Below are positions 1 through 27,119 of a DNA stretch of 31,403 nucleotides, one piece after another (the first letter of the stretch is position 1; each line of letters starts with the position of its first letter). Under the pieces are notes generated by a model. That model had not been told where the DNA came from. It did not search any database and was given only the letters and a program-made list of their open reading frames with translations. This DNA comes from a virus, in IMG/VR virus record IMGVR_UViG_3300013093_000173, positions 1-31,403 of that record. One strand, given 5' to 3'. A program made the translations under genes and the position numbers.

Positions 1-468
1 ACCGGAACCCAATTGGAACCCGACACTGCGGACGATTTCACTACGAGTGGGTTCGGCAAGTTCGTTATACATCTTGATGAACTGCGCACGGATGGTTGAT
101 GGGTTGTCGCTCTGGCAAATTTGCCACCAGCCGATTGCCCTGACGGTTCGGGTGATGGTTTCGCTCGACCAATCGGGTTTTCCACCATGAGAACCATACA
201 GCGTAACTGCTTCGTGGACTTCTGCCCATGCTTCTGTGGCGGTCTTTGGCAATACGCCAGCGATTTCAGCGCACTTCTTTCGGATGCCTGCGATGGTGGG
301 GAATCGTTCGTCGGTGAGAATCCAATCTTGTGTCGCTCGCATGACGATTTCACTATCCAAATCACCGAGCATCATGTGCCACATCTCAATGGTTTCGGAA
401 GTTGCGCTCCATGCTGGAAATGACGCTTTTAGGAGAGCGCAGACTTGGGCCGTATCGCTTCGCTTCAT
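1..468 (-). CDS. Helicase loader, phage G39P-like (partial, C-terminus off the left edge)
   Basis: This open frame begins with ATG at 468 and has no stop before the window edge, so 156 codons are visible. The N-terminal third reads like the small phage helicase loader/inhibitor family (SPP1 G39P type). It has an amphipathic start, an E-T-I-E-M-W-H-M-M-L-x-D stretch at residues 25-37, and a D-E-R-F-P-T-I-A-G-I-R-K segment around 55-66, matching the family pattern in which a short helical domain ends in 'FPPTIAEIR'. Such proteins bring the replicative helicase to the phage origin by contacting the initiator. That fits its position directly after the initiator gene: the initiator stop and this start share one base (TAATG), implying translational coupling. 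The C-terminal half looks alpha-helical and is not diagnostic. The assignment rests on motif resemblance only. Confidence 0.65.
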   Translation of the reverse strand, partial: MKRSDTAQVCALLKASFPAWSATSETIEMWHMMLGDLDSEIVMRATQDWILTDERFPTIAGIRKKCAEIAGVLPKTATEAWAEVHEAVTLYGSHGGKPDWSSETITRTVRAIGWWQICQSDNPSTIRAQFIKMYNELAEPTRSEIVRSVGFQLGSG

Positions 469-8119: not shown

Positions 8120-11100
8120 TTAAGAGCCGTAGGTGTATCCGTATTGGGGTGGTGGGGCCTCGACATAAGAGATTTGGACATTTCGATATGGCGAAGCCGA
8201 TGCTTGGTGCGTGACCGTAACATCTTCACTGATAGCGATGTATTTCTTGGTGTTCTCCACGGGGTCGGTGAGAATAAGGATTTCACCAAGGTTGAGCATA
8301 CTGATGAAATTGTCCCAATTGGCAAGGTCTGTCCAAATGATGTTGATTTGAGCATCTCGGCCCTGAACCACACCATTGACAATGATGGGGCGACTGGCTC
8401 CAAGGGGGTAGAACACGCCCACAGGGTGCTTCTGTGTTTCTGCGTAAGCGTTTTGCACATTGATGGGGAAACGAAGGTCGGGGTCGGAGGTACTTGCTAG
8501 CCACCACGAGTTGACCGTAAGGGTTCCCACGGTGATTCCAGCCAACGGCACACCGGCAATCGTGTTGGAGTTTTTGTCAATGAATGATGGTGTAATCCGG
8601 TATGTCGCTGCTGTGTTGGGGGTTACTTCGACATCGTAGACACTCTTGATGTTTGCTCCGTTGTAGTCCGTAACCGCAACGCCCGTGCTGTCGGCAGCAA
8701 GGTAGTTATTTCCACTAACACCCTTGACATAAATGGGTGTGTAGGAACTTCCGCCGTTGTCGCTTCTCTCCACAAGGTAGCGATATGAGGTGTTGGGGGT
8801 GTTGATGTAGCCGTCATTGTTCCAATTGAATACGCCCACGAGCGTTCCTTGAGCCTGCGTGTAAGAAAGTCCACCATTGATGACAGAACCAGCAGAACTA
8901 CCGCCAAAATCAATTTCACGGGTTCCATTGCTGGCGTCTGGGTCAAACAAATAAATTGTGTTTTCACCATCGGTGGGTGCATAAGTGGCAAACTGAACAC
9001 TGTTGTTTCCGGCAGAGGCGGTAGCGGATATTGCTGGGAGTTTGGTGGAATAAGTGACATAGTTGCTTGACGGCAAGTAGGGCGTCAAGGCTTGAAACAT
9101 TGGCCCCGAAAATATAACTGCATCTTTGCCTGTCATGTTGCTGATATTGATGCGAGTGTTGGCAATAGCAGCGTTGGCAGGGGACACGGCTGCGATGGCA
9201 TTTGGAACCCAACCTGAATTAGCGCCCAAGGCGGTTTGGATTTGCACACCAAGACCCGCTTTGGTTCCAATGAGTGAAGCACTTGTGGTGGAAACTGTTG
9301 CCGTAGAAGACATAATAATGGCGTTTGTGCCAGAAAACGAAGCCACATAGGTAAAGGCCGGAATTCCCGTTCCCGACAACTTGGAGCCAACTACAAGTCC
9401 CGCCGTGCTGGAAACATTTGTGATTCCATAAGAACCCGATGTCACCGTTCCTGTGAAGTAGGAAACATTGGCATTCCCCGTAGTCAAACTTGTGCTTCCA
9501 TCTACAGTTGAGATGAAGTTTCCATTTGCGTCATACCAGTCAATTAATAGTGAAAAGAACGAAGTGTTATTACTGCTGTTGAGCGAACGACCCACAACGG
9601 CGAATCCATAAGTTTGGCTCGGATTGACGGGGACTGAGTTTTGATAGTTGAACGCACCACTACTGCTGTAAATGGAGACATCTGATACTCCCGTGCCACT
9701 TGCCGTGACACGCATGGCAGATGTTCCAAACTTGGTGGGCGCATACAACCGCACAGGGGTGTATTGAAGGAAGTTGGCGGAGGGCTTAATGGGGAGAATG
9801 GGAACACTCATCACGGGCAAAGTTCCGCTTGTTGCTGAAATCAAACCAAATCCCGGAGAGTAGAAGTCACCACTTACGCCAGATACTGAGTAAGTGGAAG
9901 CCGTGGCGCAGGGCTGTACACCCTGTGTCGATGACCCAAGAGAAAGAACATAACCAGCACCCAAACCGCCAACTGTGGTTGCTGATACCGAAACAACAGT
10001 TGCGCCAACGGGAAGTCCGCTAAGAAGTGCTGTGAAATTAGCAAGGCTGGCTGTCAGGGTTTCCGTGGTGTTGCTAGTGGGATTGGGGCTTACGGTGATG
10101 GCGTTTGTTCCGCTAATGCTCGTGATGACTGCACCCGAAAGACCAGTGCCCGAAATACTCATTCCCACCACAAGATTTGCTGTGCTGGAAACTCCCGTAA
10201 TGGTTGGCGAACCGCTTGTCAGGGTTCCCGTGAAAGTTGGCTGGACGGTTGCATCGGTAGTGAAAAGAGCGTTGTAAATGCCGTTGTTGACGCTTCCTGT
10301 TGCCGTAAGAGGGGTGAATGTAGAACCACTCAAATAGCCGAGGGTAAGGTTTTGGAACTTGGTGATGGGGGCTTGATTGTAAGACAAAGCAAATGTCTGT
10401 GTTTTATCGTTCTGTTTGGGAACCGATGACTTTTCGTAGACACTGATTTGCTTGGTGGTTTGACCAGCCAAGATTTTTACTGGTGAACCGCCCGTGACTG
10501 CTTGCGATGAGTAAAGAACAGTTACGGGGTCGCCATTATGTAACGACCAACCAGCCGTAGCACCCGTATTAATGGACTCAGTAAGGGTGATTTTGCGAAC
10601 AAAGTTAATGGAGTTCACGATGGGGCCATATGTAGCAATGGTCATGCTTGCACCATTGGGAATGTAGAACCCGTGTGTATTTGTTCCCTTGTTGTAGTAG
10701 TTGAAAGTATTGGCACTACTTATGGGGTGAATTTCAAGGGCGGTGAAAATACTTATTGTTGGCCCCTGAACATAAGAATCTGTACTAACCGTAACCGTTA
10801 CTTCCCTGTGCGCTGGTGAAAACTTGATGGGGCCACTGCCAGCAGGAATGGGGTAGCCGCCGTCGTAGGAAATGGTTACCTGCGTTCCTGCTGGGACAAA
10901 AGCGTATTTAACATCACTCTCGTAGAAAATTGGTTGTACATTTCCGAGGCCCGCAACGTTGCCCGACCAGTGAAATCCGATGCGATTAACCGTAGCACCA
11001 CCAAACGCCCCCACCCCTGATTCTCCCGCCGTTGCTGCGCTGACAGTTCCAAGGTTGCTGTAGTTGGTATTGGTTTGACCATTGTGACCGTTCCAATTTG

Positions 11101-12826
11101 AAGGAACACCCTGTACGGTTGCCACGGTAAAAGTTCGTGTTGCGCTGGAAACATACTTAGTTTCTTTGGTAACTACTTGAGTGCCGTGACCTTTTTTATT
11201 GGCTTTGTATGAGGTCTGGAATGTATCGTAGCCAATTTGTAGTTGGTCGCCATTGGCGATGGTGAAATCAATGTCGTGAACCCAAATGGTCTTGCCGTCT
11301 GCACTTGTAAGTGCCCCTGTGCTGCTTTTGGCAATGTAACAACGGGATGAGTATTGAGTGCCGCCTCCGGTGGTGTAATAACCACCACTCGTTCTTGCGG
11401 GGATAATTTCTGTCTCTTTCTTGATGGTTGTTGAGGCCACCGAGTAGTCGTACTGCTGGATGATTTCACCGGCGTAACCCGTGTAAATGTCTTGTTGAAG
11501 GCCGTAGTAGACAGTTGCTCCACCGTTGTGTGATGTCGCCGTTGTGCCCAAGTATCCACGCTCAATAACCGTAAAGGTATCGCCCGTGTTATTGCCATCC
11601 ATGTTGTTTTTCACTAGCAGGCGCTCGGAGTCAATCTGAATCCAAAACTGACCGCTTCTGGGGAAACCGACCGCATCTGCGGCTGCGTAGTAGTTGGCGG
11701 TGATATGGCCCGAACTAATGGCGGATGTCGCTTTGGCTGACAAGACCGCCGTGTAGTTTCCACCAACCACCCCAAGGCTATTGATGGTTGTTCCTGCTGG
11801 GATTCCATTTCCAAAAACCACCATGCCAACAATCAATTTGTTGTAAGCCGCCGAGGCGGAAACAGTTAGGTTGACGCTTCCTTTGGAAATACTGCCCGTA
11901 AAAGCGACATGGCTTGCGCCCGTGACGCTGGTGGAACCGCTTACCTTAAAGGTTGTATCAGTGGAACTGATGTCGCCAACAAGACCGCCATACGCACCAA
12001 TGGGCAAACTTGATACAACAGTGTCGGTGGAAAGTGGCGAACGAAGTGTGGTTTGGACAAGGGCAAGGTCGGTGGTGCTTTGAGCCGTGTCGAGGGTGGC
12101 GTTGGTTGAATTCCAACCGCCCTTAGTTCCAACAAAATCGGCATTGTCTGCTGAAAACAAGTTGTCCGAAGTTTGGATAGCAAGTTCGTTACGAGCATTT
12201 ACGCTGTCTACATACACTGCCAACAATGGCTGTTGAGGCTGAACAATGGTGACGGTGAATCCAACTGTCGTCCACTCGCCCTCGTAGCGTTGGCTAGAAA
12301 CTTCTTTGACCACCTTTACGGAGGCCCAGTACTGACCACCATTCACATACCCATCATTGGCGTTCAAAGGGTAAGTGCTGGAATTGTCGGTTCCAATAAA
12401 GGATTTGAGGGCCAGCGAAGTATTCCCCGGCGTCCATGAAGGGTTGTTGTATGCGGCGTTGGTGAAAATGTTGACCATGTAACCGACTTGAGGCGTACCG
12501 TCGGGGTCGTAGTAATTCCAAAGCAGGGCGTAATCGCCGTCAGAAATGGCGGACTTAAAGTTGAACCTGATGTTGTTGTCGGGAACAACGCTGAGTTGGA
12601 GAATCTGGGGGTGAGCCGTAATGGTGGCAGTTGCCACGGCGCTCTTGATGCTTACTTTTTGACCAGCCGGAACTTGTGCGTCCACCTTGGCACCATGGTG
12701 ACCCTTGTGGATTTTCTTGGGTTCCCATTTTTGTCCATTGGGGGCATTGTGTTTTTTTCCACCTGTGTGGACAGAATGATTGACCGTGCTTTTTGCGGTA
12801 GATGTTTTGCTCTTGGGCTTCGCCAC
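8120..12826 (-). CDS. Large minor tail protein: FN3-like, split carbohydrate-binding-like and beta-module regions
   Basis: The product is 1568 aa from GTG 12826 (GGGAG upstream). Residues 1-50 are very rich in Lys, His and Gly. Residues about 55-195 look like a fibronectin-type sandwich. At 221-255 a 'NLFSADNADFVGTKGGW' segment starts a carbohydrate-binding-like jelly roll. Its likely second half (A-M-R-V-T-A-S-G-T ... 'LLIDWYDANGNFIST') appears only at about 1030-1110, and its end ('GWVPNAIAAVSPANA') at about 1200-1245. Repeat modules fill the gaps (about 305-375, 860-970, 1122-1188). Residues 388-442 hold a 'GFPRSGQFWIQIDSERLLV' module ending in G-T-T-A-T-S-H. Residues 1450-1568 match a C-terminal domain seen in actinophage minor tail proteins ('HPVGVFYPLGASRPIIVNG'). 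It probably joins the tail tip to sugar-binding appendages. Confidence 0.75.
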   Translation of the reverse strand: MAKPKSKTSTAKSTVNHSVHTGGKKHNAPNGQKWEPKKIHKGHHGAKVDAQVPAGQKVSIKSAVATATITAHPQILQLSVVPDNNIRFNFKSAISDGDYALLWNYYDPDGTPQVGYMVNIFTNAAYNNPSWTPGNTSLALKSFIGTDNSSTYPLNANDGYVNGGQYWASVKVVKEVSSQRYEGEWTTVGFTVTIVQPQQPLLAVYVDSVNARNELAIQTSDNLFSADNADFVGTKGGWNSTNATLDTAQSTTDLALVQTTLRSPLSTDTVVSSLPIGAYGGLVGDISSTDTTFKVSGSTSVTGASHVAFTGSISKGSVNLTVSASAAYNKLIVGMVVFGNGIPAGTTINSLGVVGGNYTAVLSAKATSAISSGHITANYYAAADAVGFPRSGQFWIQIDSERLLVKNNMDGNNTGDTFTVIERGYLGTTATSHNGGATVYYGLQQDIYTGYAGEIIQQYDYSVASTTIKKETEIIPARTSGGYYTTGGGTQYSSRCYIAKSSTGALTSADGKTIWVHDIDFTIANGDQLQIGYDTFQTSYKANKKGHGTQVVTKETKYVSSATRTFTVATVQGVPSNWNGHNGQTNTNYSNLGTVSAATAGESGVGAFGGATVNRIGFHWSGNVAGLGNVQPIFYESDVKYAFVPAGTQVTISYDGGYPIPAGSGPIKFSPAHREVTVTVSTDSYVQGPTISIFTALEIHPISSANTFNYYNKGTNTHGFYIPNGASMTIATYGPIVNSINFVRKITLTESINTGATAGWSLHNGDPVTVLYSSQAVTGGSPVKILAGQTTKQISVYEKSSVPKQNDKTQTFALSYNQAPITKFQNLTLGYLSGSTFTPLTATGSVNNGIYNALFTTDATVQPTFTGTLTSGSPTITGVSSTANLVVGMSISGTGLSGAVITSISGTNAITVSPNPTSNTTETLTASLANFTALLSGLPVGATVVSVSATTVGGLGAGYVLSLGSSTQGVQPCATASTYSVSGVSGDFYSPGFGLISATSGTLPVMSVPILPIKPSANFLQYTPVRLYAPTKFGTSAMRVTASGTGVSDVSIYSSSGAFNYQNSVPVNPSQTYGFAVVGRSLNSSNNTSFFSLLIDWYDANGNFISTVDGSTSLTTGNANVSYFTGTVTSGSYGITNVSSTAGLVVGSKLSGTGIPAFTYVASFSGTNAIIMSSTATVSTTSASLIGTKAGLGVQIQTALGANSGWVPNAIAAVSPANAAIANTRINISNMTGKDAVIFSGPMFQALTPYLPSSNYVTYSTKLPAISATASAGNNSVQFATYAPTDGENTIYLFDPDASNGTREIDFGGSSAGSVINGGLSYTQAQGTLVGVFNWNNDGYINTPNTSYRYLVERSDNGGSSYTPIYVKGVSGNNYLAADSTGVAVTDYNGANIKSVYDVEVTPNTAATYRITPSFIDKNSNTIAGVPLAGITVGTLTVNSWWLASTSDPDLRFPINVQNAYAETQKHPVGVFYPLGASRPIIVNGVVQGRDAQINIIWTDLANWDNFISMLNLGEILILTDPVENTKKYIAISEDVTVTHQASASPYRNVQISYVEAPPPQYGYTYGS

Positions 12827-12886: not shown

Positions 12887-15800
12887 TTAATAAGTAGGAG
12901 GCACCTGAGGGTTGATGTAGGTATCGGCTGGGCTGACATCTCCGGTGGAAAAATCAACAAGAGAGACAGAGACTTGACTGCCGTTATTTTGTGAAGCCTG
13001 CATACCCACCGTAACCGAAATATCTGAGATTTCAGCAGTATTCCAACGGGTTCCGTCGTAGACCTCAATACTGTTGGTGCTATTTACATACCGAGTATCG
13101 CCTGCACTGGGGGTTCCGGGAGGCGAGTAGTAGGAAATGTTGGTGTTGGCATCGTAGCCATTGACCGTGGGGGATGCGAGGGTGATGAGGTAGGTTCCAT
13201 CGGCTTGGAGAACAGGGGTTGTATAGGGGTACACGATTTCACTAAGGGTTTCATTCCCCAAAGTCAAGGCCACGGAAGTTGACAAGGTGGTTGGGTTTAT
13301 GTTGAAAGTGGCCCCCGTCACCGTAGCGTCTGCGTATGCGTTGACTGTGATGGTGGAACCAGACACCGAGGAAACAAAAGCCGGAATTCCAAACACCGAG
13401 TAAGAGGCAGTAAAGGTAGCCCCCGTAGCGGTTACAACTGCCGTGTCATAAAGATTCACCACATTTGTTCCGCTTATGGACACAATTGGGCTGGTAAGAA
13501 GCCCACTTCCCGATGTGGTCGGTGCTATTCCATTGGAAGTAATGGTTTCTGTAGCCGAAGTTGTTGCCACTGCGGACATAATCAAGGCCGTCGTGCCCGA
13601 GAACGAAGCGATGGTGGCGGTTGAGGGAATTCCCGTCCCAGAGATGCCTTCTCCCACAAACAAGTTCGCCGTGCTGGAAATGCCGGTAATTGTGGCGCTT
13701 CCGGTAGTGATGGTGCCCGTAAAGGAGACTGCGCTGGCGATGTCCGCCCCCACAACTAGACCTGCGGTGCTAGAAACCCCTGTAAGGGCCGTAGAACTGG
13801 CTGTGGCGTTCGCTGTGAAGGTTGTGGTGAAACTGTTAGGAATAAGTTGAGCGCCCAACAAGGGGCCACCGGGCGTAATTGTGGCGGTTGCTGTAGCCGT
13901 GGCGTAGGCCGACATGACCAAAGCAGTGGTTCCCGAGAAGGAGACGATGTAGGAGTTCAAGGGGATTCCGGTTGCCGAAAGAACTTGACCAGCAAACAGA
14001 TTGGCGGTAGTGGAAACTCCCGTGATGAGGTTGCTTCCAGTCGTGATGTTTCCTGTGAAGGGCGAGGCGAGGATGAAGGTGATTTGGTTGCTTCCCAAAG
14101 TTGTGTTTGCCGTGAAAGAACCACTAGCGATGGTGTCGTCGTAGTTGTAGAAGGGCAGGAATGGAGCAACCGGCACCACTTCGGTGGCAGTGGGTTCGGC
14201 GTTTTCCACGGTGATTTCTTGGGCGGTGGTTCCTGAGCCAATAATCAAAACTTGGTCGCCATGAAGAGGTGTAATGAGTCCATACGAGCATCGTGTTCCG
14301 TACCCAAAACCCGAAAGGGTGTCAGACAAAACGCCATTGTTCACATTGGTCGAGATGAAGTTGTAAACAGGGAAGGCGGTTACTGAAATGCTTGTGTCAC
14401 CGGCATTAGCAGCAACCGTTGTAAAGATTTCTTGACCGTATGGGCCATATTTGAGGTAGATGGTCGCACCAGCAGGAATGGGTGCAGGCAACGGAGTGGT
14501 GTAAATTGTGTAAACGAACTCCCCATCTGAGTAGAGGGAGGCATCAATGTTTAGCGTGACGCCACCGTTGACTGTTGGGTAAGCAGGTTGACCGGAAGCG
14601 TATTGCAGGGTTACCGTTCCCGTTCCACTACTGAAAGTTCCGCCTGTGCTTGTGCTTGAGATGTAAGCACCGGCAGGAATGCCGTTTCCAGCAACTTCGT
14701 AACCGAAGTAAATGGTGCCCGATGTCAAGTTTTGTGAAAATGGCAGACTCAGGGTTACGGTAGAACCGCTAACGCTTACCACAACAGTGCTTGCTTGGAT
14801 GCCCGGGTCGCCAAACATTGTCATGCCCAAAGAGGGAACGGTTCCAATGACCGTGTAGGTATTGCTTCCAGCCAAGCCAGAACTCAAGGTTCCTGATACC
14901 ACTCCGCTTAGGGGGGTGTTTTCATAAACGCCCGTAATGCTGGCGCTTGCCGTTGAAGCGATACCCGAGAAAGAGCGGTTGAGGTAAAAAGAAGGAACTG
15001 TCAATTCGGTTATCGGCGTAGCAGTATCGAGGTAACGAAGGCTGACGGGAGTTCCATCTTGGTAAGAAATGTTGGTGGGGCTAGCCAGAAGCATATAAAA
15101 ACCGCTTGGTGAAACCGTGGTGTCTGCAACACTCAAGATTCCACTTACCTGAACAATGTCTGTTCCAATCCGTGCAAAAAAACCGTTGGTGGGGACGGGA
15201 TATCCGCTAGGGGCAATTGGGACAACGGTGGTTCCCGAAGCCACGGCTCCTGCAATTCGCCCAATGTCGTGAGGAAAGAAGTTGTCAAGTTGGTAGACAT
15301 CTCCGTAAACATTGGCGGGGAACACATTGTTTCCCTTGAGATACAGGCTGGTGGAACCTGAAGGGGCTGACTTGGCAAGGGTTGTTCCCAAAGAAGAAAT
15401 GCCATTGTTCCCTGATTGCAACCAGTTGGGCAACAGGCCCAACGTGGTGGAAAGTGCGATGGCTTCTCCGCCTGCCGTGTTGTCTGCGGTTAGCGTCTGA
15501 ACGCTGGTTTTGGTGGTTTGGTCATCAGCACTACCAAGAATGGGTGCGCCAGCAGCGTGTTGGTTGGCAAATCCAGTGGTGGAAAGATTGGAAACAAACA
15601 CAGGCTCACCGGCAAAGTGGTTGTAGCGGAACTTTTGCCCAGAAGCCAAACCGATGGAAATGGGTGTGATGGTGTTTCCTGTGGCGCTTCCCGTCAAGAA
15701 ATTGTATTGACCGTTAAAGATGACAGTTTCTTGCGTATTACCTTGACCGACAACCATGACGCCCCAAACACTTGGCGTAAAGGTGTAACTGGCTGTAGTG

Positions 15801-18800
15801 GAATCAACCGCAACAGGATTGGAAAGAAGAACGTAGATGTCTTCTAGGTAGGTGACAATGGTGCCACTTGGAATTCCCGTTCCGTGAACCTGCCATCCAA
15901 CCCCGACCACAGGAGTGGTGGAAGGTTGAAGTTGGATGTAATACTGACCGGCAACTGTGGTGCATCCCGTTACGGTTGTGCTGGTAAGCACGGCAGCGCC
16001 CTGTGAGGCAGGATTGCCGTATTGGTCGTAGTAAGAACCCGATACAAGGTTGCTGGTGTTATTCAGAGGGGCGATAACCACCCCATCAGAAGCCGTAGTG
16101 ATGTCGTCGTAGAGGGTTGTTCCAAAAAGGGAGCCAATGGTGATTGGCGTGAGAACTTCCAAATCTCCCACAGTGGTGGAACCGAAGTAACGGTCGCCCT
16201 CATCATAAGAAGCAACGACGGTATTGGTTGCGTGGTTGTTGATGATGTTGTTAGCAAGGGTGATAACACCTGCCCCAAAACCGTCTTGGGTGGGTGTAGT
16301 GAAAGCCGAAAGGTAGGAGACAGTTTGCTCTAGGGGGTAGATAGCGTTGGGGTTGTCGCTATTGGGGTAAGAAACAACGCTTGAACCCGATGATGCGTTT
16401 CCATCTACGCTCCAAACAATCATCTTGTCGCTGGCGGGATAAGTTTCCAGCACAGCCAAACGACTACCGCCATAGACACAGTTGGGCGTGTAGGTGGCAA
16501 ACGAGCCAGAGCCGGAGGCAAGAAGGGTGATTGGTTGGCCCAAGTTGTCCTCTAAGAATACTGTGTAGGTGGAACCATTGGAAACAACCGCCGAGACAAA
16601 AACATTGCCATAACCGCTTTGTGAGGTGGAATAGTCACTTGACAGGTTTGATGGGATAAATACCGCATCGCCCACATTGATGTAGAGGGTGTCGGTGTAG
16701 GAAACCCCGTAGATGCCGTTGTAGCCAGCCGTAACGCTTGCCGTTGACTGCCATTGGTAAACAGGCGACAACTCAACATTGGAAAGAGTGTCCACAGTCA
16801 GGGTGAGCGTGTTGCTTACCCCTGCGTTTCCACCAGCCACCATTTGAATGTTGTATCCCCCACTTGGAATTGAGTATCCCGTGTAGTAAGTGACATAATA
16901 GATGGATGGAGCAACCCCACCGCTTACACTTCCAAAACTTCCGAGTGTGATGGTGTAGTAGTCAAATGTGATGGTGTCTTGGGCAACTGTAAAGAGTGCG
17001 GTATTGGAAACCGTAATCTGCGATTCGCTGTCAACGGAAACAATGGTGGTTCCTGCCGGAAAGCCTGTGTAGGAAACATCAATATTCTGACCCACCATGA
17101 GGCCATCGGTTCCACCATTGGTGCTGTCAGAGTTGGTGTTGGGGCCAACAATATTCTGAATGACGGCTGAACCAAAAGTAATGTCACCCGTGTAGGCAAC
17201 CGTTTGGGCGGTTTGTGAAATTGAGTAAATGTATGGGCCGGCAGTACCGTTTCCCGAACCCGAATCAACCACCCTGCGAGTTCCACCTGTAACCGTAAAG
17301 GGTGTTGCATCGCTTGACAATTGCTGACCCACGGAAAGACCCGTAATGTCAGCAATAACCAAAGGTGGTGAAAGATACATGGGGGAGGCCGTCACCGAAG
17401 TTCCGGTGTAGGCGGAAGCAAGGTTGATTACAAATCCCGTTCCGCTTTGGGTGATTCCTGTGATAGCCGTAGGCGTTGACCAAGAAACTCCAGAGTGAGA
17501 TGCAGACGCAGTAAATGACAAACCCCACAGTTGCCAACCGCTAGAAATGCTCGTTGCGTAGAAAGTTCCACTCGTGACCGTGCTGGTAGCAACGGCAGAC
17601 AGGGTGATAGAAGTCCCGCTAATGGAAAGAATTGTGGTTGATGCACTAACTCCCGTTCCCGAAACCGTCTGCCCCACGGAAAGGTTTGCCGTGCTAGAAA
17701 CCGTCATGGTGGCGCTACTAATTGTTGTGCTTCCCGTAAAGGTTGTGTAGAAGGTTCCGCCCGTTGGGTCTGAAACGTTGACTGTGGTTGCCGAAGTGGA
17801 CGCAGTTCCCAAGAAGTTGATTGATGGGGTGGGGTTACTGAAAACAGAAACGCCGTAGACAGTATTTCCGACACTTGGCGTGTGAGATGCGATGCCTGTT
17901 GCTAAAGCAATGGGTGTCGTTTGGATGCTCTTGGGGATGACCGGCATAATCAAGAACTGCCCATGGTTGGGGTTGTTGTATCCGTCAATGCTCAAGTAAG
18001 GAGCGGTGAAAAACTGACTGTCAAACTTGTTTTGAGAATCAGTGTTGAGGCGAGTGGTGAATCCATCAATGGTTGCCCCGAACGCCAATGCGTTGCTTTG
18101 TGGGACAGAGTAGCCAATGGTGTAAATTTCACGGCTCGCATCGGTGCCAGTCGAAGCATTTGATAGGGATACATAACCATTGATGATGGTGAATGTCTCA
18201 GAGACAGCAGAAGTGCCAGAGATAAGGGCGTTGGACAGGGTAACAAAGTTGGCCGAGGCTATTTTGGTAATGCCCGTAATGACCGCCGATGTGGTGGCGG
18301 CGCTACTTCCCACAATCATGCCCAACATGAGGCCAGTCCGTTGGTCAAGGCCACCCGAGAAACTGGGGAACAAAATGCCTGCCGGAGCAGTCATGCCCGT
18401 GAATGAGGTGTAGTAAGTTCCCGTTACCGTAAAAGTTTGAGCAGGGAACAAACTGGTAGAAAAAGTGAATGTGCCAGACGATGATGGATGGTGAGAAAGC
18501 GTTACCGTGCTGGCGACGGTATCCATATCAGTGATAACCGTTCCGGTGGGAAGCAAAGTGCCAGAGGTAACCGCTTGACCGATTGCTAGACCTTGCATAG
18601 CCGACCCGACGCTTAGTCCGTTGGGTGCGATAACACTACTTACCCCCGTAATGACATTAGAAGTGGTGGAAACAGTGCCGCTAAAAGATACCGACTGACC
18701 GCTCACAAATTCATCTTGAAGGTGATTGACTTGAACGGTGGTGTTGGCAGGAATGTTATTACCGGCAAAAGTCATTCCATTTAGGAAACTGCCGTCTGCT

Positions 18801-21800
18801 TGGTTGTTGGTGTAATACGAGTTCAGGCCCGAAACCACAAACCCGTCAGATGTCCATGATGACTGGTAGCCACTTGTTCCCAAGAAGTTGTAGACGGCGT
18901 TGGTGATAGAAAGCGGAGTTACGCTGCTTGTTCCTGAAGCAGTAGTAGTTGCTGAAATGTTGACTGTTGCGGTGCCCGAAACCGAAACCACCGTAGCCGT
19001 ATCAGGGATTCCAGCAGCCTGAACTGACATACCGGCGTAAACGCCAGAAGTATTGGAAACCGAAATAGCGGTCGTTCCTGAACTCCAAGATGCGGTGTTA
19101 GTGGTTCCCGTGGAGTTGTAGACGAAGGCTTGTCCGGCGGCGTACATTTCATCCACCGTTTCATTGACCGAACCCGTGACCGATGTTCCAAAGGTCTGGT
19201 AACCATCTGCAGTGAGGGCGCTAGACAAAAGAACCGTATTGGTTCCCGATACGCTAGAAACCGTTTCACCCGAGGGCGACAACAAAGTTGCACCGTTGTA
19301 AACCGTAATGGAATCTCCACCAGCCATAGGGATTGTTCCCGTAAAAGTCAAACTTGAAGAGTAAGTGGTTCCGGTGAAGTTGGCAGATACTGTGGCGGTC
19401 GCAGTCCAAGTTCCAGTAGTAGAAACCGGAGAGGCAAGCAAGTACTCGTATGGGCTACTGCCATTGATTCTGGTTCCGCTTGCAAACGAGTTACCCGAGC
19501 CAATGTATCCAGTTGCCGTAACGGTGGCGCTATTTGACAAAATGTTGTCTTGGGTCGTTCCTGTTGTGGTGACCAAAATGGTGCGACCAGTTGAACCCGT
19601 GATGGATGTGGTGGCAGTTGCGGCCTGACCAGTTGATGTGGCGGAAACGGTGGTTCCACCACTAAGAACAAATTGGTTGGCATTGAACGCAGCAGCCGTA
19701 AAGGTGACGCCGGTTGTTGTGCCGGTAACTGAAGCGTTCTGGTTCATAACAATTGTATTGGTGCCAGAAAAAGCCTCAATGTAGTAAGTATTGGCACTCA
19801 AAGATACCGAGGACAAAGATTGACCAAGAACTAATCCCGCAGTACTCGAAACACCCGTGATGTTGGGACTGGATGCACTGAGAGTTCCTGTAAAAGTGTG
19901 TGAAGTAGCCGTTGTGGGAGCCTGAGTAATGGTGCGACCCGTCCCAAGGGTGGACGAGGTGAAACTGTTGCCCACAAACAACAAAGTCGAAATGTTGTAA
20001 GTGGTTGAGCCAACCGTAAAAGAGCCACTTGAGTTGACTGTGTATGCCGTGCTTCCAATAGTCGCAGAGGTCACACTGACGGGCAAAGTGTTGCCTGTGG
20101 GTGCTGTGTATGACCAAGAAGCCGTAAATGAAACCGTAGAGGTGAAAGTGGCACTAGCCGTGTAGGAAACGGGTGAGGGGGTAATTCCGACTCGGTATTT
20201 GCTGACCCCATACCCCGTGCTGTCCACTGCCGTAATTCCACTTCCACCCGTAAGGCCGGTTCCTGTGAGGTTTGCCCATCCCGTTGGGGCAGGGCTGAGG
20301 TAGGGCAGAGCCGTAACCGCCGTAGTGGAAATCAAAATTGATGGGTTGTTTTGCGCCGTGAATGTCGCAGAAGCCGTGAAGGTGGCTCCTGATACAAGGG
20401 TTGCTGAAATACCATTGACCGTTATGGAGGTTCCGGTGCTTACTGCCGTGACCAATACTCCGGTAGTAAATGCCGTGGTTTGTGTAATGGTCTGGTTTAA
20501 CCCCACAACCGTGCTGGTCGTTGAGATGTAGTTTCCACCACTCAAAGTGGCTGTGTAAGTAACCGCACCATTGGGAACAGTTGAGTTTCCTGTGGCATTT
20601 TGTGAAATGGTGATTGCGGTGGATGAAATAGCCGTGATGTAACTGCCGTTGGGAATGAAACTTGTGTTGGTGGCATCCGTAATTGATTGACCCAACACAA
20701 GTCCAGCAGTAGAGGAAGGGCTTATCAAAAGATTGGAACCATTATTGACCACTGCGCTGAAACCGGCATTGGGCAACGGGAGAACCATATTGGAAGTGCT
20801 TAAATTCCCACTTACTCCACGAGATGTTTGTGTGTTCAAGTCGGTAGTGATGACATTTCCACTAATGGAAATAACTTTCCCTGCGTTCCAACCCATTGAT
20901 GCTGGAGTGAGAGTGGTTGTTGGCTTGAAGGCGACCGTAATGGTCTGGCCTACTGCGAATCCCGTAGTGCTAGAAACAGTTATTTGTGTGTTGTAGGTTC
21001 CAACAACAATGGAAGAAATGGTTGGGCTTAGACCCGCCGCCGCCGTAGCATCTGGGAGAATCGAAGAAAGATTAAAAAGAGCCGTTGAGTCGCCAGAGGT
21101 AGCCACATACATTGGTGAAGCCTGCCCATAGCCAACGGAGTAAGGGGTTGGGGATTGGCCTACCAAATAAGTTGTTGAAGTTTGTGGTGAAATAAACTGA
21201 CCGAGGTATTTATTCGCTGGCGGGTTGTAGAACGACAAGTTGGGTGACATGACCGACGAGATGTTTCCATATCCCTGTGGAAGCATCAGCGACGAAGTGG
21301 GGAAGTCCACGATGTCTACTGACTGCTTGTAGGGAACAGTGGGAATCAGGCCGGATGTGTTGTACTGAAACCATTCGCTGTAGAAAGCATCGGTTGAAGT
21401 TGCGGCAGGGGAATAGGGGGTCTTACCATCTTGCAAACCTTCCAAAATGGCAACAATTTGATTCTTGCGAAACTTGGAAATGTCCTCAACATAGGTGAAA
21501 TAATCGCCGCCAGACGAAGCAAAGTATTGGCTTGCAACAGCACTTGTCCCTGAGTATGTTGCGTATGTGGTTGAACAGGGGGCCGTAAAGATTTGAGCGG
21601 TGAAAACTACGCCTGTAACTGTTGCCGTAGCGGAAGCACTCAAAGTGACAGTTGTTACCCCGATAGAAGCAATAGTGGCACTTGGCAGACCTGCGTCATT
21701 TGTGACCGTAGCCCCCACAATCAGATTGGATGGGCTGGAAACACCCGTGATGGTGGCTGAGGCGGAAGTCAGATTTCCCGTAAACAACACGGAAGTAGTG

Positions 21801-22216
21801 GAAATGTTCCAAATGGCGTTGTAGCCCGTTACAGATGCCCCCGTGACCGTGATGTAAGCGTTGGGATTGGGATATGCACCCACAGAATTGGTGTAGGCAA
21901 ATCGAGCCGTAGCCGTGTCTGAGGTGATATTGGAAACTTGGTAGACAACGGGGGTTCCATCGTTGGGGTTGTAAGGCTCCACAGCATTGGAACTACGGTT
22001 CCCGACAGTGGGCTGGGTCATGTAGGTATACGCAGTGAAAAACTGGTACAAGTCCTGTGCTTGGGCGTAGTAGGTGTTGCCGTTCAGGTCGGGGATGGTG
22101 GCAACGGCGAAAGTGGTGGCGTCATTAACCGCCTCGTGATTGCTCTCCGAGTTCACGGCTGACCAGTTACCTTGTGAGGCAGCAGTCGAGTTGGGGTAAA
22201 GGGTCAGGACTTTCAT
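12887..22216 (-). CDS. Giant fibre-like tail protein made of beta-module repeats
   Basis: The product is 3109 aa, by far the largest gene here and nearly three times the tape measure. The protein is dominated by Ser, Thr, Gly, Ala and Val, with few charged residues. A roughly 60-residue module recurs about a dozen times. Its consensus runs F-T-G-x-[LI]-x-[ST]-G-S-x-x-I-T-G-V-S-S-T-A-x-L, V-G-x-x-[IV], G-x-G-[IL]-P-x-x-T-x-I, then S-[FIV]-S-G-T and a closing strand rich in alternating A/T. The clearest copies lie at about 13540-13730, 13870-14060, 17550-17760, 19700-19900 and 21600-21795. The N-terminus (about 140 residues) is unique and probably the tail anchor. The C-terminus contains 'GDTRYVNSTNSIEVYDGTRW', a motif common in phage fibre ends. 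It lies directly after the tape measure, where a distal tail protein is usual. It is probably a long adhesive or sheath-like fibre. Confidence 0.75.
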   Translation of the reverse strand: MKVLTLYPNSTAASQGNWSAVNSESNHEAVNDATTFAVATIPDLNGNTYYAQAQDLYQFFTAYTYMTQPTVGNRSSNAVEPYNPNDGTPVVYQVSNITSDTATARFAYTNSVGAYPNPNAYITVTGASVTGYNAIWNISTTSVLFTGNLTSASATITGVSSPSNLIVGATVTNDAGLPSATIASIGVTTVTLSASATATVTGVVFTAQIFTAPCSTTYATYSGTSAVASQYFASSGGDYFTYVEDISKFRKNQIVAILEGLQDGKTPYSPAATSTDAFYSEWFQYNTSGLIPTVPYKQSVDIVDFPTSSLMLPQGYGNISSVMSPNLSFYNPPANKYLGQFISPQTSTTYLVGQSPTPYSVGYGQASPMYVATSGDSTALFNLSSILPDATAAAGLSPTISSIVVGTYNTQITVSSTTGFAVGQTITVAFKPTTTLTPASMGWNAGKVISISGNVITTDLNTQTSRGVSGNLSTSNMVLPLPNAGFSAVVNNGSNLLISPSSTAGLVLGQSITDATNTSFIPNGSYITAISSTAITISQNATGNSTVPNGAVTYTATLSGGNYISTTSTVVGLNQTITQTTAFTTGVLVTAVSTGTSITVNGISATLVSGATFTASATFTAQNNPSILISTTAVTALPYLSPAPTGWANLTGTGLTGGSGITAVDSTGYGVSKYRVGITPSPVSYTASATFTSTVSFTASWSYTAPTGNTLPVSVTSATIGSTAYTVNSSGSFTVGSTTYNISTLLFVGNSFTSSTLGTGRTITQAPTTATSHTFTGTLSASSPNITGVSSTAGLVLGQSLSSVSLSANTYYIEAFSGTNTIVMNQNASVTGTTTGVTFTAAAFNANQFVLSGGTTVSATSTGQAATATTSITGSTGRTILVTTTGTTQDNILSNSATVTATGYIGSGNSFASGTRINGSSPYEYLLASPVSTTGTWTATATVSANFTGTTYSSSLTFTGTIPMAGGDSITVYNGATLLSPSGETVSSVSGTNTVLLSSALTADGYQTFGTSVTGSVNETVDEMYAAGQAFVYNSTGTTNTASWSSGTTAISVSNTSGVYAGMSVQAAGIPDTATVVSVSGTATVNISATTTASGTSSVTPLSITNAVYNFLGTSGYQSSWTSDGFVVSGLNSYYTNNQADGSFLNGMTFAGNNIPANTTVQVNHLQDEFVSGQSVSFSGTVSTTSNVITGVSSVIAPNGLSVGSAMQGLAIGQAVTSGTLLPTGTVITDMDTVASTVTLSHHPSSSGTFTFSTSLFPAQTFTVTGTYYTSFTGMTAPAGILFPSFSGGLDQRTGLMLGMIVGSSAATTSAVITGITKIASANFVTLSNALISGTSAVSETFTIINGYVSLSNASTGTDASREIYTIGYSVPQSNALAFGATIDGFTTRLNTDSQNKFDSQFFTAPYLSIDGYNNPNHGQFLIMPVIPKSIQTTPIALATGIASHTPSVGNTVYGVSVFSNPTPSINFLGTASTSATTVNVSDPTGGTFYTTFTGSTTISSATMTVSSTANLSVGQTVSGTGVSASTTILSISGTSITLSAVATSTVTSGTFYATSISSGWQLWGLSFTASASHSGVSWSTPTAITGITQSGTGFVINLASAYTGTSVTASPMYLSPPLVIADITGLSVGQQLSSDATPFTVTGGTRRVVDSGSGNGTAGPYIYSISQTAQTVAYTGDITFGSAVIQNIVGPNTNSDSTNGGTDGLMVGQNIDVSYTGFPAGTTIVSVDSESQITVSNTALFTVAQDTITFDYYTITLGSFGSVSGGVAPSIYYVTYYTGYSIPSGGYNIQMVAGGNAGVSNTLTLTVDTLSNVELSPVYQWQSTASVTAGYNGIYGVSYTDTLYINVGDAVFIPSNLSSDYSTSQSGYGNVFVSAVVSNGSTYTVFLEDNLGQPITLLASGSGSFATYTPNCVYGGSRLAVLETYPASDKMIVWSVDGNASSGSSVVSYPNSDNPNAIYPLEQTVSYLSAFTTPTQDGFGAGVITLANNIINNHATNTVVASYDEGDRYFGSTTVGDLEVLTPITIGSLFGTTLYDDITTASDGVVIAPLNNTSNLVSGSYYDQYGNPASQGAAVLTSTTVTGCTTVAGQYYIQLQPSTTPVVGVGWQVHGTGIPSGTIVTYLEDIYVLLSNPVAVDSTTASYTFTPSVWGVMVVGQGNTQETVIFNGQYNFLTGSATGNTITPISIGLASGQKFRYNHFAGEPVFVSNLSTTGFANQHAAGAPILGSADDQTTKTSVQTLTADNTAGGEAIALSTTLGLLPNWLQSGNNGISSLGTTLAKSAPSGSTSLYLKGNNVFPANVYGDVYQLDNFFPHDIGRIAGAVASGTTVVPIAPSGYPVPTNGFFARIGTDIVQVSGILSVADTTVSPSGFYMLLASPTNISYQDGTPVSLRYLDTATPITELTVPSFYLNRSFSGIASTASASITGVYENTPLSGVVSGTLSSGLAGSNTYTVIGTVPSLGMTMFGDPGIQASTVVVSVSGSTVTLSLPFSQNLTSGTIYFGYEVAGNGIPAGAYISSTSTGGTFSSGTGTVTLQYASGQPAYPTVNGGVTLNIDASLYSDGEFVYTIYTTPLPAPIPAGATIYLKYGPYGQEIFTTVAANAGDTSISVTAFPVYNFISTNVNNGVLSDTLSGFGYGTRCSYGLITPLHGDQVLIIGSGTTAQEITVENAEPTATEVVPVAPFLPFYNYDDTIASGSFTANTTLGSNQITFILASPFTGNITTGSNLITGVSTTANLFAGQVLSATGIPLNSYIVSFSGTTALVMSAYATATATATITPGGPLLGAQLIPNSFTTTFTANATASSTALTGVSSTAGLVVGADIASAVSFTGTITTGSATITGISSTANLFVGEGISGTGIPSTATIASFSGTTALIMSAVATTSATETITSNGIAPTTSGSGLLTSPIVSISGTNVVNLYDTAVVTATGATFTASYSVFGIPAFVSSVSGSTITVNAYADATVTGATFNINPTTLSTSVALTLGNETLSEIVYPYTTPVLQADGTYLITLASPTVNGYDANTNISYYSPPGTPSAGDTRYVNSTNSIEVYDGTRWNTAEISDISVTVGMQASQNNGSQVSVSLVDFSTGDVSPADTYINPQVPPTY
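13405..13830 (-). repeat. Beta module apparently nested inside another beta module
   Basis: Read on the minus strand, a first half-module ('STALTGVSSTAGLVVGADI') at about 13830-13735 breaks off where G-x-G-I-P is expected. A complete module (A-V-S-F-T-G-T-I-T-T-G ... S-F-S-G-T-T-A-L-I-M-S) occupies about 13731-13535. A matching second half ('SPIVSISGTNVVNLYDTAVV') follows at about 13510-13405. The split is seen directly; the insertion history is inferred. Confidence 0.5.
13870..14060 (-). repeat. Beta module, close relative of the nested copy
   Basis: This copy (N-I-T-T-G-S-N-L-I-T-G-V-S-T-T-A-N-L-F through S-F-S-G-T-T-A-L-V-M-S) is the nearest relative of the complete module at 13535-13731, with well over half of the residues the same. 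That points to a recent local duplication. DNA similarity includes the V-S-S-T-A segment, read on the plus strand as G-(T/C)-(G/A)-C-T-(G/A)-G-A-A-A at many modules. Confidence 0.55.
14560..14975 (-). repeat. Second probable nested module in the giant tail protein
   Basis: An opening half-module ('SFSGIASTASASITGVYENT') at about 14975-14920 is followed by a full module-like segment ('SGTLSSGLAGSNTYTVIGTV' through V-S-V-S-G-S-T-V-T-L-S). Then 'VAGNGIPAGAYISSTSTGG' appears at about 14700-14650, which would be the second half of the first module. The insertion point differs slightly from the case at 13405-13830. Confidence 0.4.
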
Positions 22217-22246: not shown

Positions 22247-25200
22247 TTATCTACCTTGTGCTTTCAGCGAATAGCGCAATTGCCTGAACTGTTCGTTCAC
22301 ATGGTTCTTGACATCCGCCATGCTTGCGCTGTCCATATTTCCTTGGACATTCACGGTAAATGCTCCGGGGTGGACATTGACATTGGTGGACTGTTGATTG
22401 CTTCTGCCGGTTCCGTTAAGAGCCTTTCCAGCAGATGCCGAAGCACCCAGAATATGAACATTCATGGCATTCCCGGTCATGGAAACAGGGAACTTGCGTG
22501 ATGTGCTGTTTCCACCACCACCGCCAAACCAGTTGAGCGGGTTGAGGTCGTGGAGGACATGGCCCGCAAAGTGGACGACATCTCCAAAAAGGTGGACAAG
22601 ATGTTCAACAAGGCTGATGGCAAGGTGGATGGGGCCAATCACCATTGTTTGCCAAATCCCCTCAAAGACCTTCCCAATGAATTTCACCGCATCGCCAAGA
22701 CCGTGTAGGGCGTCCACACCCCATTGTTTGATGTCTTTCCAATACTTGATTGCCAAAATCAGGGGAGCCAAAAATGGCATCATAAACATAAGGGCGTCAA
22801 GGCCAAACTTTTTGAGGAAGTTCCAAACATCTATGGCGGCTGTCTTGATGCCGTGCCAAGCAACGCCAGCCCAGTGCATGAGGTCTTTGTGGTACTTGAT
22901 GATGAGGTAAATTGCTGCTCCAATGGCAAGGCCCGCAAGGATAAACGGGGCTGCTGCAATAAGCATTTCACCAAATGCCACCAATGCGGCACCAGCAACA
23001 GAAGCCCATCCCGCAATCATTTCAGCAAACATGGGCAGAAATGCTGCTTCCGTTGTTGTCGCAGTCGTCAACGCTTCTTCGGTTTCTGTAGCCATCACTC
23101 CCGTCATGGCTGTTTCGGTTTCACCAGCAGCAGCAATTGCTTCGGCGGCCGTGGATGAGAACATTGTTATAATCAATTTTCCAGCGCCGACAGCCATTTT
23201 GCCTAGACCTTGGAACACAGGAACCATTCCACCCAACACGCCAGACAACTGAAGGCCGCCCGTAATCATGCTGTTCCAGTCAACCTTCTTTCCACTAAAG
23301 AGGTCGGTAACTTGCTTTTTGAGAGTATCAAGCGTTCCCATTCCTCCGCCGAGAACAAAAGAAGCAGCAGCACCGGCACCGCCAAGAGCAGCCTTGGTGA
23401 CCCCCGTGCCAATTTTTCCAAAACCGCCAGACCCAAACAACCGGCTGGTAAATGAAGGCTTACTCATTTCACTATGGAGTGACTCGGCGACACCTTTGCC
23501 AGCCGCTTGCCCCATTTGTGTCATTTGGCGATACACCATGTCGCTGTATTCGGGGCTGTTGATATCGTAGGCACCGGCACGAGCCTTAGCATCTTGCATC
23601 AATTGGTAGGTGGGGTCGTTCTTGTACGCCTCTTTTCCACCACCAAATTGCTTTTTGTAATTGTCTGATGCCTTTTGAAGGGCATCTGTGTTTTCCCTTA
23701 GCGCCTTAAGGTTCTCATCTTCACCTTCGCCCTCGTCAAGTTTCATCATCTTGATGTAGGAACTAACATCCATTGTCGGCCCTTGGAGGTAAGCCCTCAC
23801 ACCACGCTGTGACTTCTGTTGCTTCTTGTATTCTGCGTAAGCCTCGTCGCTCTCACCTTCTTCTTGCTTGCGCATAAAGGCACGACCAAAGAGGGGCATG
23901 GCTGAGCGACGAAGATTCTTGTACTTCTCTTGGGCCAGCGCACCTTCGATTTGATTCTCTCGTTCGGCTCTAAGTGCTTCACGGGGATTGATTTGCTTGA
24001 GGCGCAACGCCTGAATAATGTCACGCTGTCTTTGCTGGTATTCAGCCTGTGCTTTACCAGCCTGACCACCCGTAAGAATGCCGACAAGTCCACGGTCACG
24101 AAAACCCTTTGTCGCCCCCGAGAGCGCCCCCTTGGTGGTTTCACCAAAGACCAAAGAGGCTCGGGTGGCCTTACCCATCATCTCCAAGAATCCTTGAATG
24201 GGGGTAATGAACAGGTGCTTGGCAAAGAACACCGCAGAAAGTGCAACCAATGCCCCCATGATGATTTCAAAGAGGGGCTTGAACTCCGAAATCTTTTTCA
24301 CTAGGTAATCAAAGGCGTTGACCAACTTGGTAAGACTGAAGGCAGCAAACTTCGCCATTGCGGTCACAATGGTCACCATGGGGGGAACCATGGGCAACAT
24401 GGCGGTCAAGATGTTGGCAAAAGCCGTAGCCAGAGTCGGCAGAATTGGCATGAGTGCCGCAAAGATTTGGTAGAAAGAAGTCCACAAAGCGGCCAACTGA
24501 CCGTTGCTTGTCATTTTGGTGAAAACATCACTGATTTCTTTGAGGGCTGGCGTGATGGCGTCGCCAAGAGTGGTTCCAAAACTGGCAAACAGGCCAATAA
24601 AGGTTTGCACGGCCTTGCTATTGAAAATGTTGTTGAGTTGAGTGCCAATGACGCCAATGAATTCAGCAATGGGTTGAACCACATCCAAGATTGCTGGCAG
24701 GACTCCTTGAGTGAAAACTTCTGCTAAAGGTTGAATAATTTTGGAAATGGAACCCAGCGTGTTTCCGATAGTGCCCGACATCGCTCCGATTGCTTGCGCA
24801 ACTGTATTGAAAATGGGGTCAAGGGCATAAAGGGTTTGACCAACAACTGCCGCCAAGTTATCAATAATGGGCATAAGACCACGGCCCATCTGTTGCATAA
24901 TCAACATGATGTCGTTCTGCATTCGTTGAACTGGTGAAATTGCCGCCTGAGCAGTTCCACGAAGACTACCGTTGATGTCTTGAAGAATCAACTGTTGAGC
25001 AGCCAACAACCCGTTTTGCTTTTGAACATTCTTGATTTGGATTTGTTGTGACAAAGCCAAGTGAAATCCCATGCGAGACATACTGCCCATGGAGCGTGCT
25101 GGGTCAGCAAGCAAACGAGAAACCATCCGTGATGCGCCAACGATTCCACTACCGCCAGAACCCATTTGTGCGGCAAGGTTGGCAGAAGCCTCAACCGCAG

Positions 25201-25723
25201 CGTTTAGGTAGCCACCAGTTGTTTTGGAATATTGGGTTTGAGAGGCGTATAGGGATGTGAGGTCTGTATTGGGGAGCAGAAGGTTTTGGGCTTGAATGAT
25301 TTGGTTCTTCTGAATACCCGATTGGAACGAAAGGTCTGTAGCCTGTTGGTCGAGCAATTTGGAGTATTGCTCACCCTTTTTGTTGACAGCAGTTTGCGTT
25401 CCAACGACCGTTTGAAGCCCACCAATAAATGACTGTTGGGTTTCATTTTGGTTTTTCAGCAGGGTGGCTTGAACTGACTGCAAACTCTGTTGTTGTGAGG
25501 CTAGGTCAATGCCCTTGCCCAATAGGGCGATTCCACCACCAATAGCAAAGGCACTGGTGAGGACTCCGCCGACATCACGGAATAGGCTGGACATTTTGCC
25601 AGCAGTACGCTCTGTGGCCCCAACAATGCTGTCAAGGGAGTGCTGAATGTTGGTTGGGTCACCGATGATTTGGACACGAAGTTGTGCCGCATTCATCATC
25701 CCCGAATCGCCAGCCATAGACAT
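22247..25723 (-). CDS. Tape measure protein
   Basis: The product is 1158 aa. Size, position after the chaperone pair and composition identify it. It is helix-rich with Gln/Ala stretches near residues 70-290, hydrophobic spans at about 310-480, a charged coiled region (about 590-720), and strongly hydrophobic segments at about 915-1010 ('FILAGLAIGAAIYLIIKYHK', 'FMMPFLAPLILAIKYW'). A Gly-rich linker and beta-rich tail then precede the C-terminus. It sets tail length and is packed inside the tube. By the usual rule of about 0.15 nm per residue the tail would be about 170 nm. No lysozyme or peptidase motif was recognised. The start lacks a strong ribosome site (an in-frame ATG two codons later is equally possible) and lies 39 bases after the chaperone stop. 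Confidence 0.85.
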   Translation of the reverse strand: MSMAGDSGMMNAAQLRVQIIGDPTNIQHSLDSIVGATERTAGKMSSLFRDVGGVLTSAFAIGGGIALLGKGIDLASQQQSLQSVQATLLKNQNETQQSFIGGLQTVVGTQTAVNKKGEQYSKLLDQQATDLSFQSGIQKNQIIQAQNLLLPNTDLTSLYASQTQYSKTTGGYLNAAVEASANLAAQMGSGGSGIVGASRMVSRLLADPARSMGSMSRMGFHLALSQQIQIKNVQKQNGLLAAQQLILQDINGSLRGTAQAAISPVQRMQNDIMLIMQQMGRGLMPIIDNLAAVVGQTLYALDPIFNTVAQAIGAMSGTIGNTLGSISKIIQPLAEVFTQGVLPAILDVVQPIAEFIGVIGTQLNNIFNSKAVQTFIGLFASFGTTLGDAITPALKEISDVFTKMTSNGQLAALWTSFYQIFAALMPILPTLATAFANILTAMLPMVPPMVTIVTAMAKFAAFSLTKLVNAFDYLVKKISEFKPLFEIIMGALVALSAVFFAKHLFITPIQGFLEMMGKATRASLVFGETTKGALSGATKGFRDRGLVGILTGGQAGKAQAEYQQRQRDIIQALRLKQINPREALRAERENQIEGALAQEKYKNLRRSAMPLFGRAFMRKQEEGESDEAYAEYKKQQKSQRGVRAYLQGPTMDVSSYIKMMKLDEGEGEDENLKALRENTDALQKASDNYKKQFGGGKEAYKNDPTYQLMQDAKARAGAYDINSPEYSDMVYRQMTQMGQAAGKGVAESLHSEMSKPSFTSRLFGSGGFGKIGTGVTKAALGGAGAAASFVLGGGMGTLDTLKKQVTDLFSGKKVDWNSMITGGLQLSGVLGGMVPVFQGLGKMAVGAGKLIITMFSSTAAEAIAAAGETETAMTGVMATETEEALTTATTTEAAFLPMFAEMIAGWASVAGAALVAFGEMLIAAAPFILAGLAIGAAIYLIIKYHKDLMHWAGVAWHGIKTAAIDVWNFLKKFGLDALMFMMPFLAPLILAIKYWKDIKQWGVDALHGLGDAVKFIGKVFEGIWQTMVIGPIHLAISLVEHLVHLFGDVVHFAGHVLHDLNPLNWFGGGGGNSTSRKFPVSMTGNAMNVHILGASASAGKALNGTGRSNQQSTNVNVHPGAFTVNVQGNMDSASMADVKNHVNEQFRQLRYSLKAQGR

Positions 25724-26347: not shown

Positions 26348-27109
26348 CTAGATGGTTGTGCGAGAAACTGAACCCGTAACCTGCATTTCAGCGTCAAAGG
26401 TAACTACGCCGTTGACAGAGGACTTGAGGTCATACTTGGTAAGGATTCCCTGACCGAAGTACTTGGGTGATGCGGTTCCACCAACAAATGCGCCGGGGTC
26501 TGAGGGGCCATACACGAAGGAGATGAACTGTCCTGCGGTGTTTTGGAAGGCAAGCGCCGTTTGGAAAATAGCGTCCAAACCGCCCGCCTGACCCATGATG
26601 GTGCTGGAACCGTCGTAGTGACCAGAGAAAGTTACCGTGTAGTCACGCAAACCTACGATGAAAGACTTGACACCAGCAGCATTGAATGAGGTCGTTTCAG
26701 CGGCCTCAACAGCCTGAGGGAACGAAATGTCGTTGATGTAAGGCGAGATATTCCACATGGGAAGCAGGTAGCCCGTTCCCGAAGTCGCACCCGTGACGAT
26801 GGTGTTGCTGAACGAGATGCTCGTGCTTGAAGTGCTAGCAAGAGTCGTAGCGATGACAGGGGTCGTCAATGAGGGCAGAGGTGAAAAAGTCTGGCTCAAC
26901 ACAGGGTTCACGAAGTAGCCGTAGTAGGAGGTTGCGTTGACCGTAGCAAGCACATTGTCCGAAGCAGCAAGCGAACCAGACTGGATAAGCGTGCCAGCAG
27001 TGCCCGAAACAGATGTGGAACTCATGGATGAGAACACATTGGCAGTGCCGGTGCTGTTCTCAAAACCAAGTGCAAGAAAGGCGTTCTTACCGTGCTGGAA
27101 AATTGGCAT
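26348..27109 (-). CDS. Tail tube protein paralogue 2
   Basis: The product is 253 aa. It shares the start M-P-I-F-Q-H-G-K-N with the gene just upstream, and the core: 'ISPYINDISF' (about 121-130), A-V-E-A-A-E-T-T-S-F, 'VGLRDYTVTFSGHYDG' and 'GILTKYDLKSSVNGVVTFDA'. This is the pattern of siphovirus major tail proteins, whose subunits stack into the tube. Between the first strand (G-K-N-A-F) and the 'ISPYINDIS' segment lie about 105 Ser/Thr-rich residues that ordinary members lack, suggesting an outward loop domain. The ribosome site AAGGAG overlaps the stop codon of the upstream gene. Which paralogue is the major tube subunit cannot be told from sequence. Confidence 0.78.
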   Translation of the reverse strand: MPIFQHGKNAFLALGFENSTGTANVFSSMSSTSVSGTAGTLIQSGSLAASDNVLATVNATSYYGYFVNPVLSQTFSPLPSLTTPVIATTLASTSSTSISFSNTIVTGATSGTGYLLPMWNISPYINDISFPQAVEAAETTSFNAAGVKSFIVGLRDYTVTFSGHYDGSSTIMGQAGGLDAIFQTALAFQNTAGQFISFVYGPSDPGAFVGGTASPKYFGQGILTKYDLKSSVNGVVTFDAEMQVTGSVSRTTI

Positions 27110-27119
27110 TATTTACTCC

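Follow-up and report, generated by a model that had tools for sequence, protein, structure and literature searches.

Nested copies of a small beta-barrel module in a phage tail protein and their probable origin by loop insertion

The analysis of a 31,403-nucleotide viral sequence (IMG/VR record IMGVR_UViG_3300013093_000173, hereafter the window) revealed a tail protein of 3109 residues in which a complete copy of a small module lies between the two halves of another copy of the same module. Very probably, the arrangement is best explained by a barrel of the insertion-domain kind that was nested by insertion into loops, the resulting nests being exchanged as cassettes. The gene encoding the protein (12887..22216, minus strand) directly follows a tape measure gene, recognized at 22247-25723 by its match to tape measure proteins, and is flanked on the other side by the gene for a 1568-residue protein; none of the search results assigned a beta-helix or an enzyme function to the 3109-residue protein. 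Relatives of the tape measure protein are found in Gordonia, Rhodococcus and Streptomyces phages, which suggests an actinobacterial host. Two neighbouring genes at 26348-28115 each matched major tail protein families.

The module spans about 65 residues, carries a "GTGIP" motif and belongs to no Pfam family. A profile was built from the seven intact copies only, leaving the split copy out, and placed the intact copies at residues 145-207, 486-556, 775-841, 1041-1100, 1493-1554, 2720-2781 and 2832-2893; the E-values of this search refer to a very small search space and are indicative only. A PHROGs search with the module returned weak matches only, mostly to virion structural proteins, while tblastn against annotated phages gave no match for the nest and none for a single module. 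Six strands were seen in each intact copy modelled with AlphaFold2, and there were matches to solved barrels; the module is predicted to fold as a small beta-barrel with six strands, a type that occurs in phage tailspikes as an insertion domain.

The initial annotation had proposed that a complete copy of the module separates the two halves of another one, and the profile returned exactly this order, i.e., a first half (model positions 1-29), an intact copy (1-62) and a second half (31-64), with boundaries close to those originally given. The first half of this middle host module (13733..13831, minus strand, residues 2796-2828) scored 20.0 bits over model positions 3-32 and is predicted to form strands E2-9, E15-17 and E30-32; the intact-copy profile aligned its positions 1-29 to residues 2800-2828. 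The inner intact module (13538..13723, minus strand, residues 2832-2893) scored 75 bits over positions 1-62, was modelled with six strands and a block pLDDT of 81-96 and is located in the GTG/IP loop of the middle host. It is followed by a linker of 17 residues (13487-13535, minus strand) and then by the second half of the host (13400..13486, minus strand, residues 2911-2939; strands E115-120, E124-127 and E135-143), which matched positions 31-64 with 13.1 bits in the window (residues 2904-2937) and positions 35-63 with 20.2 bits in the related locus L001. An ordinary tandem array, with complete copies side by side, was rejected as a description of this region, where split halves flank an intact copy.

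A further layer appears to surround this nest. An orphan second half, tentatively regarded in the initial annotation as an additional layer, was confirmed at 13298..13393 (minus strand, residues 2942-2973; 16.4 bits, model positions 37-67), where the intact-copy profile placed positions 36-62 at residues 2946-2971. On sequence grounds it paired best with a first strand pair at 14063..14122 (minus strand, residues 2699-2718, 'GSFTANTTLGSNQITFILAS'; 13.1 bits, model positions 5-21), which lies beyond the main range of the initial annotation and was aligned by the intact-copy profile at positions 1-13 (residues 2701-2713); the two pieces cover complementary parts of the model. Between them, in what would be an early loop of the outermost host, lies intact module 1 (13868..14059, minus strand, residues 2720-2783; 84.8 bits), modelled as a six-strand domain of its own with a pLDDT of about 88, followed by a weak candidate for a middle strand of the host at 13832..13867 (minus strand, residues 2784-2795, 'GGPLLGAQLIPN'). 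The composite of three pieces, with this short segment separating intact module 1 from the middle nest as the central one, scored 27.8 bits over the full span. When single pieces were replaced by random segments of the same protein, this score was reached in 0 of 300 cases for the first piece, in 1.3% for the last and in 20% for the middle one, indicating that the first and last pieces fit each other while the middle piece is not established. Judging from these profile matches, a third, outermost module appears to enclose both intact module 1 and the whole middle nest, which would make three levels.

A second nest had been proposed at 14975-14560. The corresponding region (14537..14983, minus strand) contains putative host pieces at residues 2412-2434 and 2507-2560 around an inner copy at residues 2436-2506, and nesting is plausible here; with 4.5 bits for the N-terminal piece and 13.0 bits for the C-terminal piece around an inner copy of 25.1 bits, the case is weaker than the middle nest and only suggestive.

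Self-nesting was also observed in other phages and in bacteria. A census was carried out with GTGIP motif patterns on viral and genome loci, at least several hundred in all and with the viral part being a sample; among the 445 loci sampled, full modules were present in 374, 580 in total, in 315 non-redundant contexts. For every context the two flanks were joined without the module between them and given a score, the gain being calculated over the better flank alone and compared with flanks paired at random. Gains above 8 bits were obtained in 7 of the 315 contexts (0.4 expected) and above 10 bits in 5 (0.2 expected). Clean self-nests occurred in L333 (flanks 'TAGLTFGEIVTGTGLPA' and 'GSYIKAINSLTQFTLSN'), L303 ('TTNLFAGMAVF' and 'GNPIPAGTIITGINNGTTVSLSQ') and L092 ('NNSGTIDEGMFVTGT' and 'IPPEIKVTTVTSQTSITLSS'), the latter with relatives L109, L127, L240 and L242. 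The junctions fell at the GTG/IP loop in L333, L260, L303, L302 and the L092/L109/L127/L240/L242 family, at the SGT loop in L263/L289/L313, L327 and L345, and at the early loop in L372, which carries a baseplate wedge domain, and, with low gain, in L229 and L256. In L224, L216, L146, L149 and L195 the module was found inside a cousin 'GTTLTVT' module. L333, L303 and L256, which derive from genome contigs of bacteria, are large proteins with PATR repeats and include self-nests, so that the module is common to phage tails and bacterial surface proteins.

The halves might alternatively be the remnants of two modules of a decayed tandem array, whose partner halves were deleted and which share no joint fold. 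Related proteins often carry modules in tandem, partnerless halves would look identical in sequence, and the window's own nest yielded 9.0 bits for the joined flanks against 18.9 bits for the first half alone, a joined score that taken by itself is not significant. This failure is accounted for by the 17-residue linker between the inner copy and the second host half, and the nest is supported instead by the separate matches of the two halves, by the relative L001 and by the structure model. We consider such decay improbable, since complementary halves recur in several lineages with their junctions at the same loops.

Further evidence for loop insertion was provided by homologous phage proteins of independent families that carry a module at a given site or lack it, namely L043/L106 (70% identity), L056/L053, L072 and L096/L224, and L221 and L175/L214. 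Pairs were counted only between different loci, the filtered list still holding within-protein tandem matches, and they show gain or loss of the module with no direction assigned. Related phages had also been indicated as the place to look for homologues of the outer module alone; no empty-site relative of the window's nest was found, L001 being the only close relative retrieved from the viral collection (94% DNA identity over 8.8 kb).

Alignment of L001 positions 1-822 to 13262-14083 of the window displayed a mosaic pattern of divergence. Synonymous divergence was 0.29 and 0.56 in the two halves of the middle host, 0.26 in the linker before it and 0.67 in that after the inner copy, with values of 0.09 within the inner copy and 0-0.02 just outside the nest; over 144 bases (residues 2827-2874), which take in two thirds of that copy from its start, the two sequences were identical. 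Both host halves had therefore diverged together while most of the inner copy had not, which again speaks against a decayed array. Selection was rejected as an explanation for the divergent host halves, as synonymous sites were raised too, and the nonsynonymous rates, lower than the synonymous ones in the host halves, make replacement by recombination look the case, with what look like breakpoints close to module boundaries and within the inner module. Divergence sets in just after intact module 1 and stops where the outermost second half begins, which is the pattern expected of a cassette lying in a host module. DNA identity between copies was 68-74%, indicating no recent copy-and-paste in this gene; DNA repeats in the region were only 68-86% alike over short stretches, so that a recent local duplication is rejected as the source of the nest.

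The fold of the nest was then modelled with AlphaFold2. A first model of residues 2690-2985, whose alignment comprised L001 and single modules without nested homologues, folded each of the two intact copies with high confidence into a six-strand domain of its own, the split pieces showing mostly pLDDT values below 50. A second model of residues 2796-2941, whose alignment combined L001 with nine further natural nests chosen by the analyst, reached a mean pLDDT of 81 and a pTM of 0.64, with strands arranged as 3+6+3. The inner barrel superimposed on chain 1 of 8eci, the decoration protein of the Arthrobacter phage Bridgette (Z 9.8, 69 residues, 1.7 Å, 35% identity), which was also retrieved by a sequence search of solved chains (E 0.011). 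Residues 285-371 of LKA1 gp49 (4ru4 chain B), crystallographically a beta-barrel insertion domain (PMC5701251), matched model range 1..146 over 66 residues at 2.3 Å in a single row with a Z of 6.1, a level at which fortuitous resemblance is frequent. The row nevertheless points to the two separated outer halves, because the inner barrel alone would fill positions 34-101, about 65 residues. The initial annotation would have been contradicted by two halves each forming an independent fold; the predicted 3+6+3 strands, with 66 outer residues on one solved barrel, did not show this and disagree equally with a decayed array.

Tail fibres and tailspikes are often trimers, and strands could pair between chains. 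Accordingly, the second model might be an alignment artefact, with the outer halves acting as linkers or packed elsewhere, e.g., between trimer subunits, and it is true that these halves were not resolved when nested rows were absent from the alignment; we regard this as quite unlikely, given that the pairing is not dictated by the alignment, that three of the five models had a mean pLDDT of at least 80 and that in L241 and L333, where a linker is nearly absent, the nests offer hardly any space for a different packing.

Insertion into loops is well supported as the origin of the nests by the self-nests at the same loops in unrelated lineages, the filled and empty sites of phage proteins and the match to solved insertion-domain barrels. 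The barrel would fit into loops of other domains and would itself accept further barrels at its early, GTG/IP and SGT loops; in the tail protein, one barrel would occupy the middle loop of a second, and this pair together with another intact barrel would interrupt a third. The barrels most likely reach these loops by recombination among structural genes of phages, and related phages would then trade the nests as cassettes. The tail would probably gain surface bulk or binding surface with an unchanged core, and the nested barrels may branch outward on the fibre. A broader proposal, that loops are preferred landing sites for copies of the same domain, with recursive growth of phage tail and bacterial surface proteins, here to three levels, and cassette exchange, is put forward tentatively and at less than even confidence.

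The fold, its habit of interrupting other domains and nested insertion in general are already known. The insertion domain of KP34gp57 is similar to that of LKA1 gp49, and its authors suggest horizontal acquisition (PMC10653864). These tailspike barrels resemble the module in fold by structure comparison and in interrupting a host domain (PMC5701251, PMC10653864), but they interrupt a beta-helix once and shape the active site, whereas the module interrupts its own copies, apparently up to three levels. The closest solved relative, the Bridgette protein (PDB 8ECI), shares the GIPAGTTI motif; it has about 125 residues and decorates the capsid, whereas the module is nested in a tail protein. A survey of nested domain insertion reported that insertion into host domains, nested cases included as in the module nests, is common, with inserts smaller than their hosts in 77% of events and different homologous groups joined in 66% (PMC13114784). 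In contrast to these usually smaller inserts, mostly of another homologous group, insert and host are here the same module and equal in size. In open-licence papers we found no description of self-nesting for this module or motif, and equal-sized recursive self-insertion recurring in unrelated lineages is a variant for which none was found there.

An unnamed but widespread sequence motif is now joined to the fold of tailspikes and of a capsid decoration protein. If the module does insert repeatedly into its own loops in unrelated lineages, this would be a simple route to bulk and variety in phage tails and bacterial surface proteins, and would offer a testable system for the origin and folding of nested domains.

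Finally, three further intact modules were observed in the neighbouring 1568-residue protein (11708-11902, 10052-10234 and 9278-9457), where they look inserted in other domains; a Pfam search of the region with the module left out found no host domain. Behind the module at 10052-10234 comes 'GLPVGATVVSVS', which resembles an orphan second half, and the two may constitute another early-loop nest. In the 21950-21500 region of the gene for the 3109-residue protein, a 'ITVTGASVTGYNAIWNIS' motif precedes the module at residues 145-207, and this module may interrupt a small beta domain of a second type.
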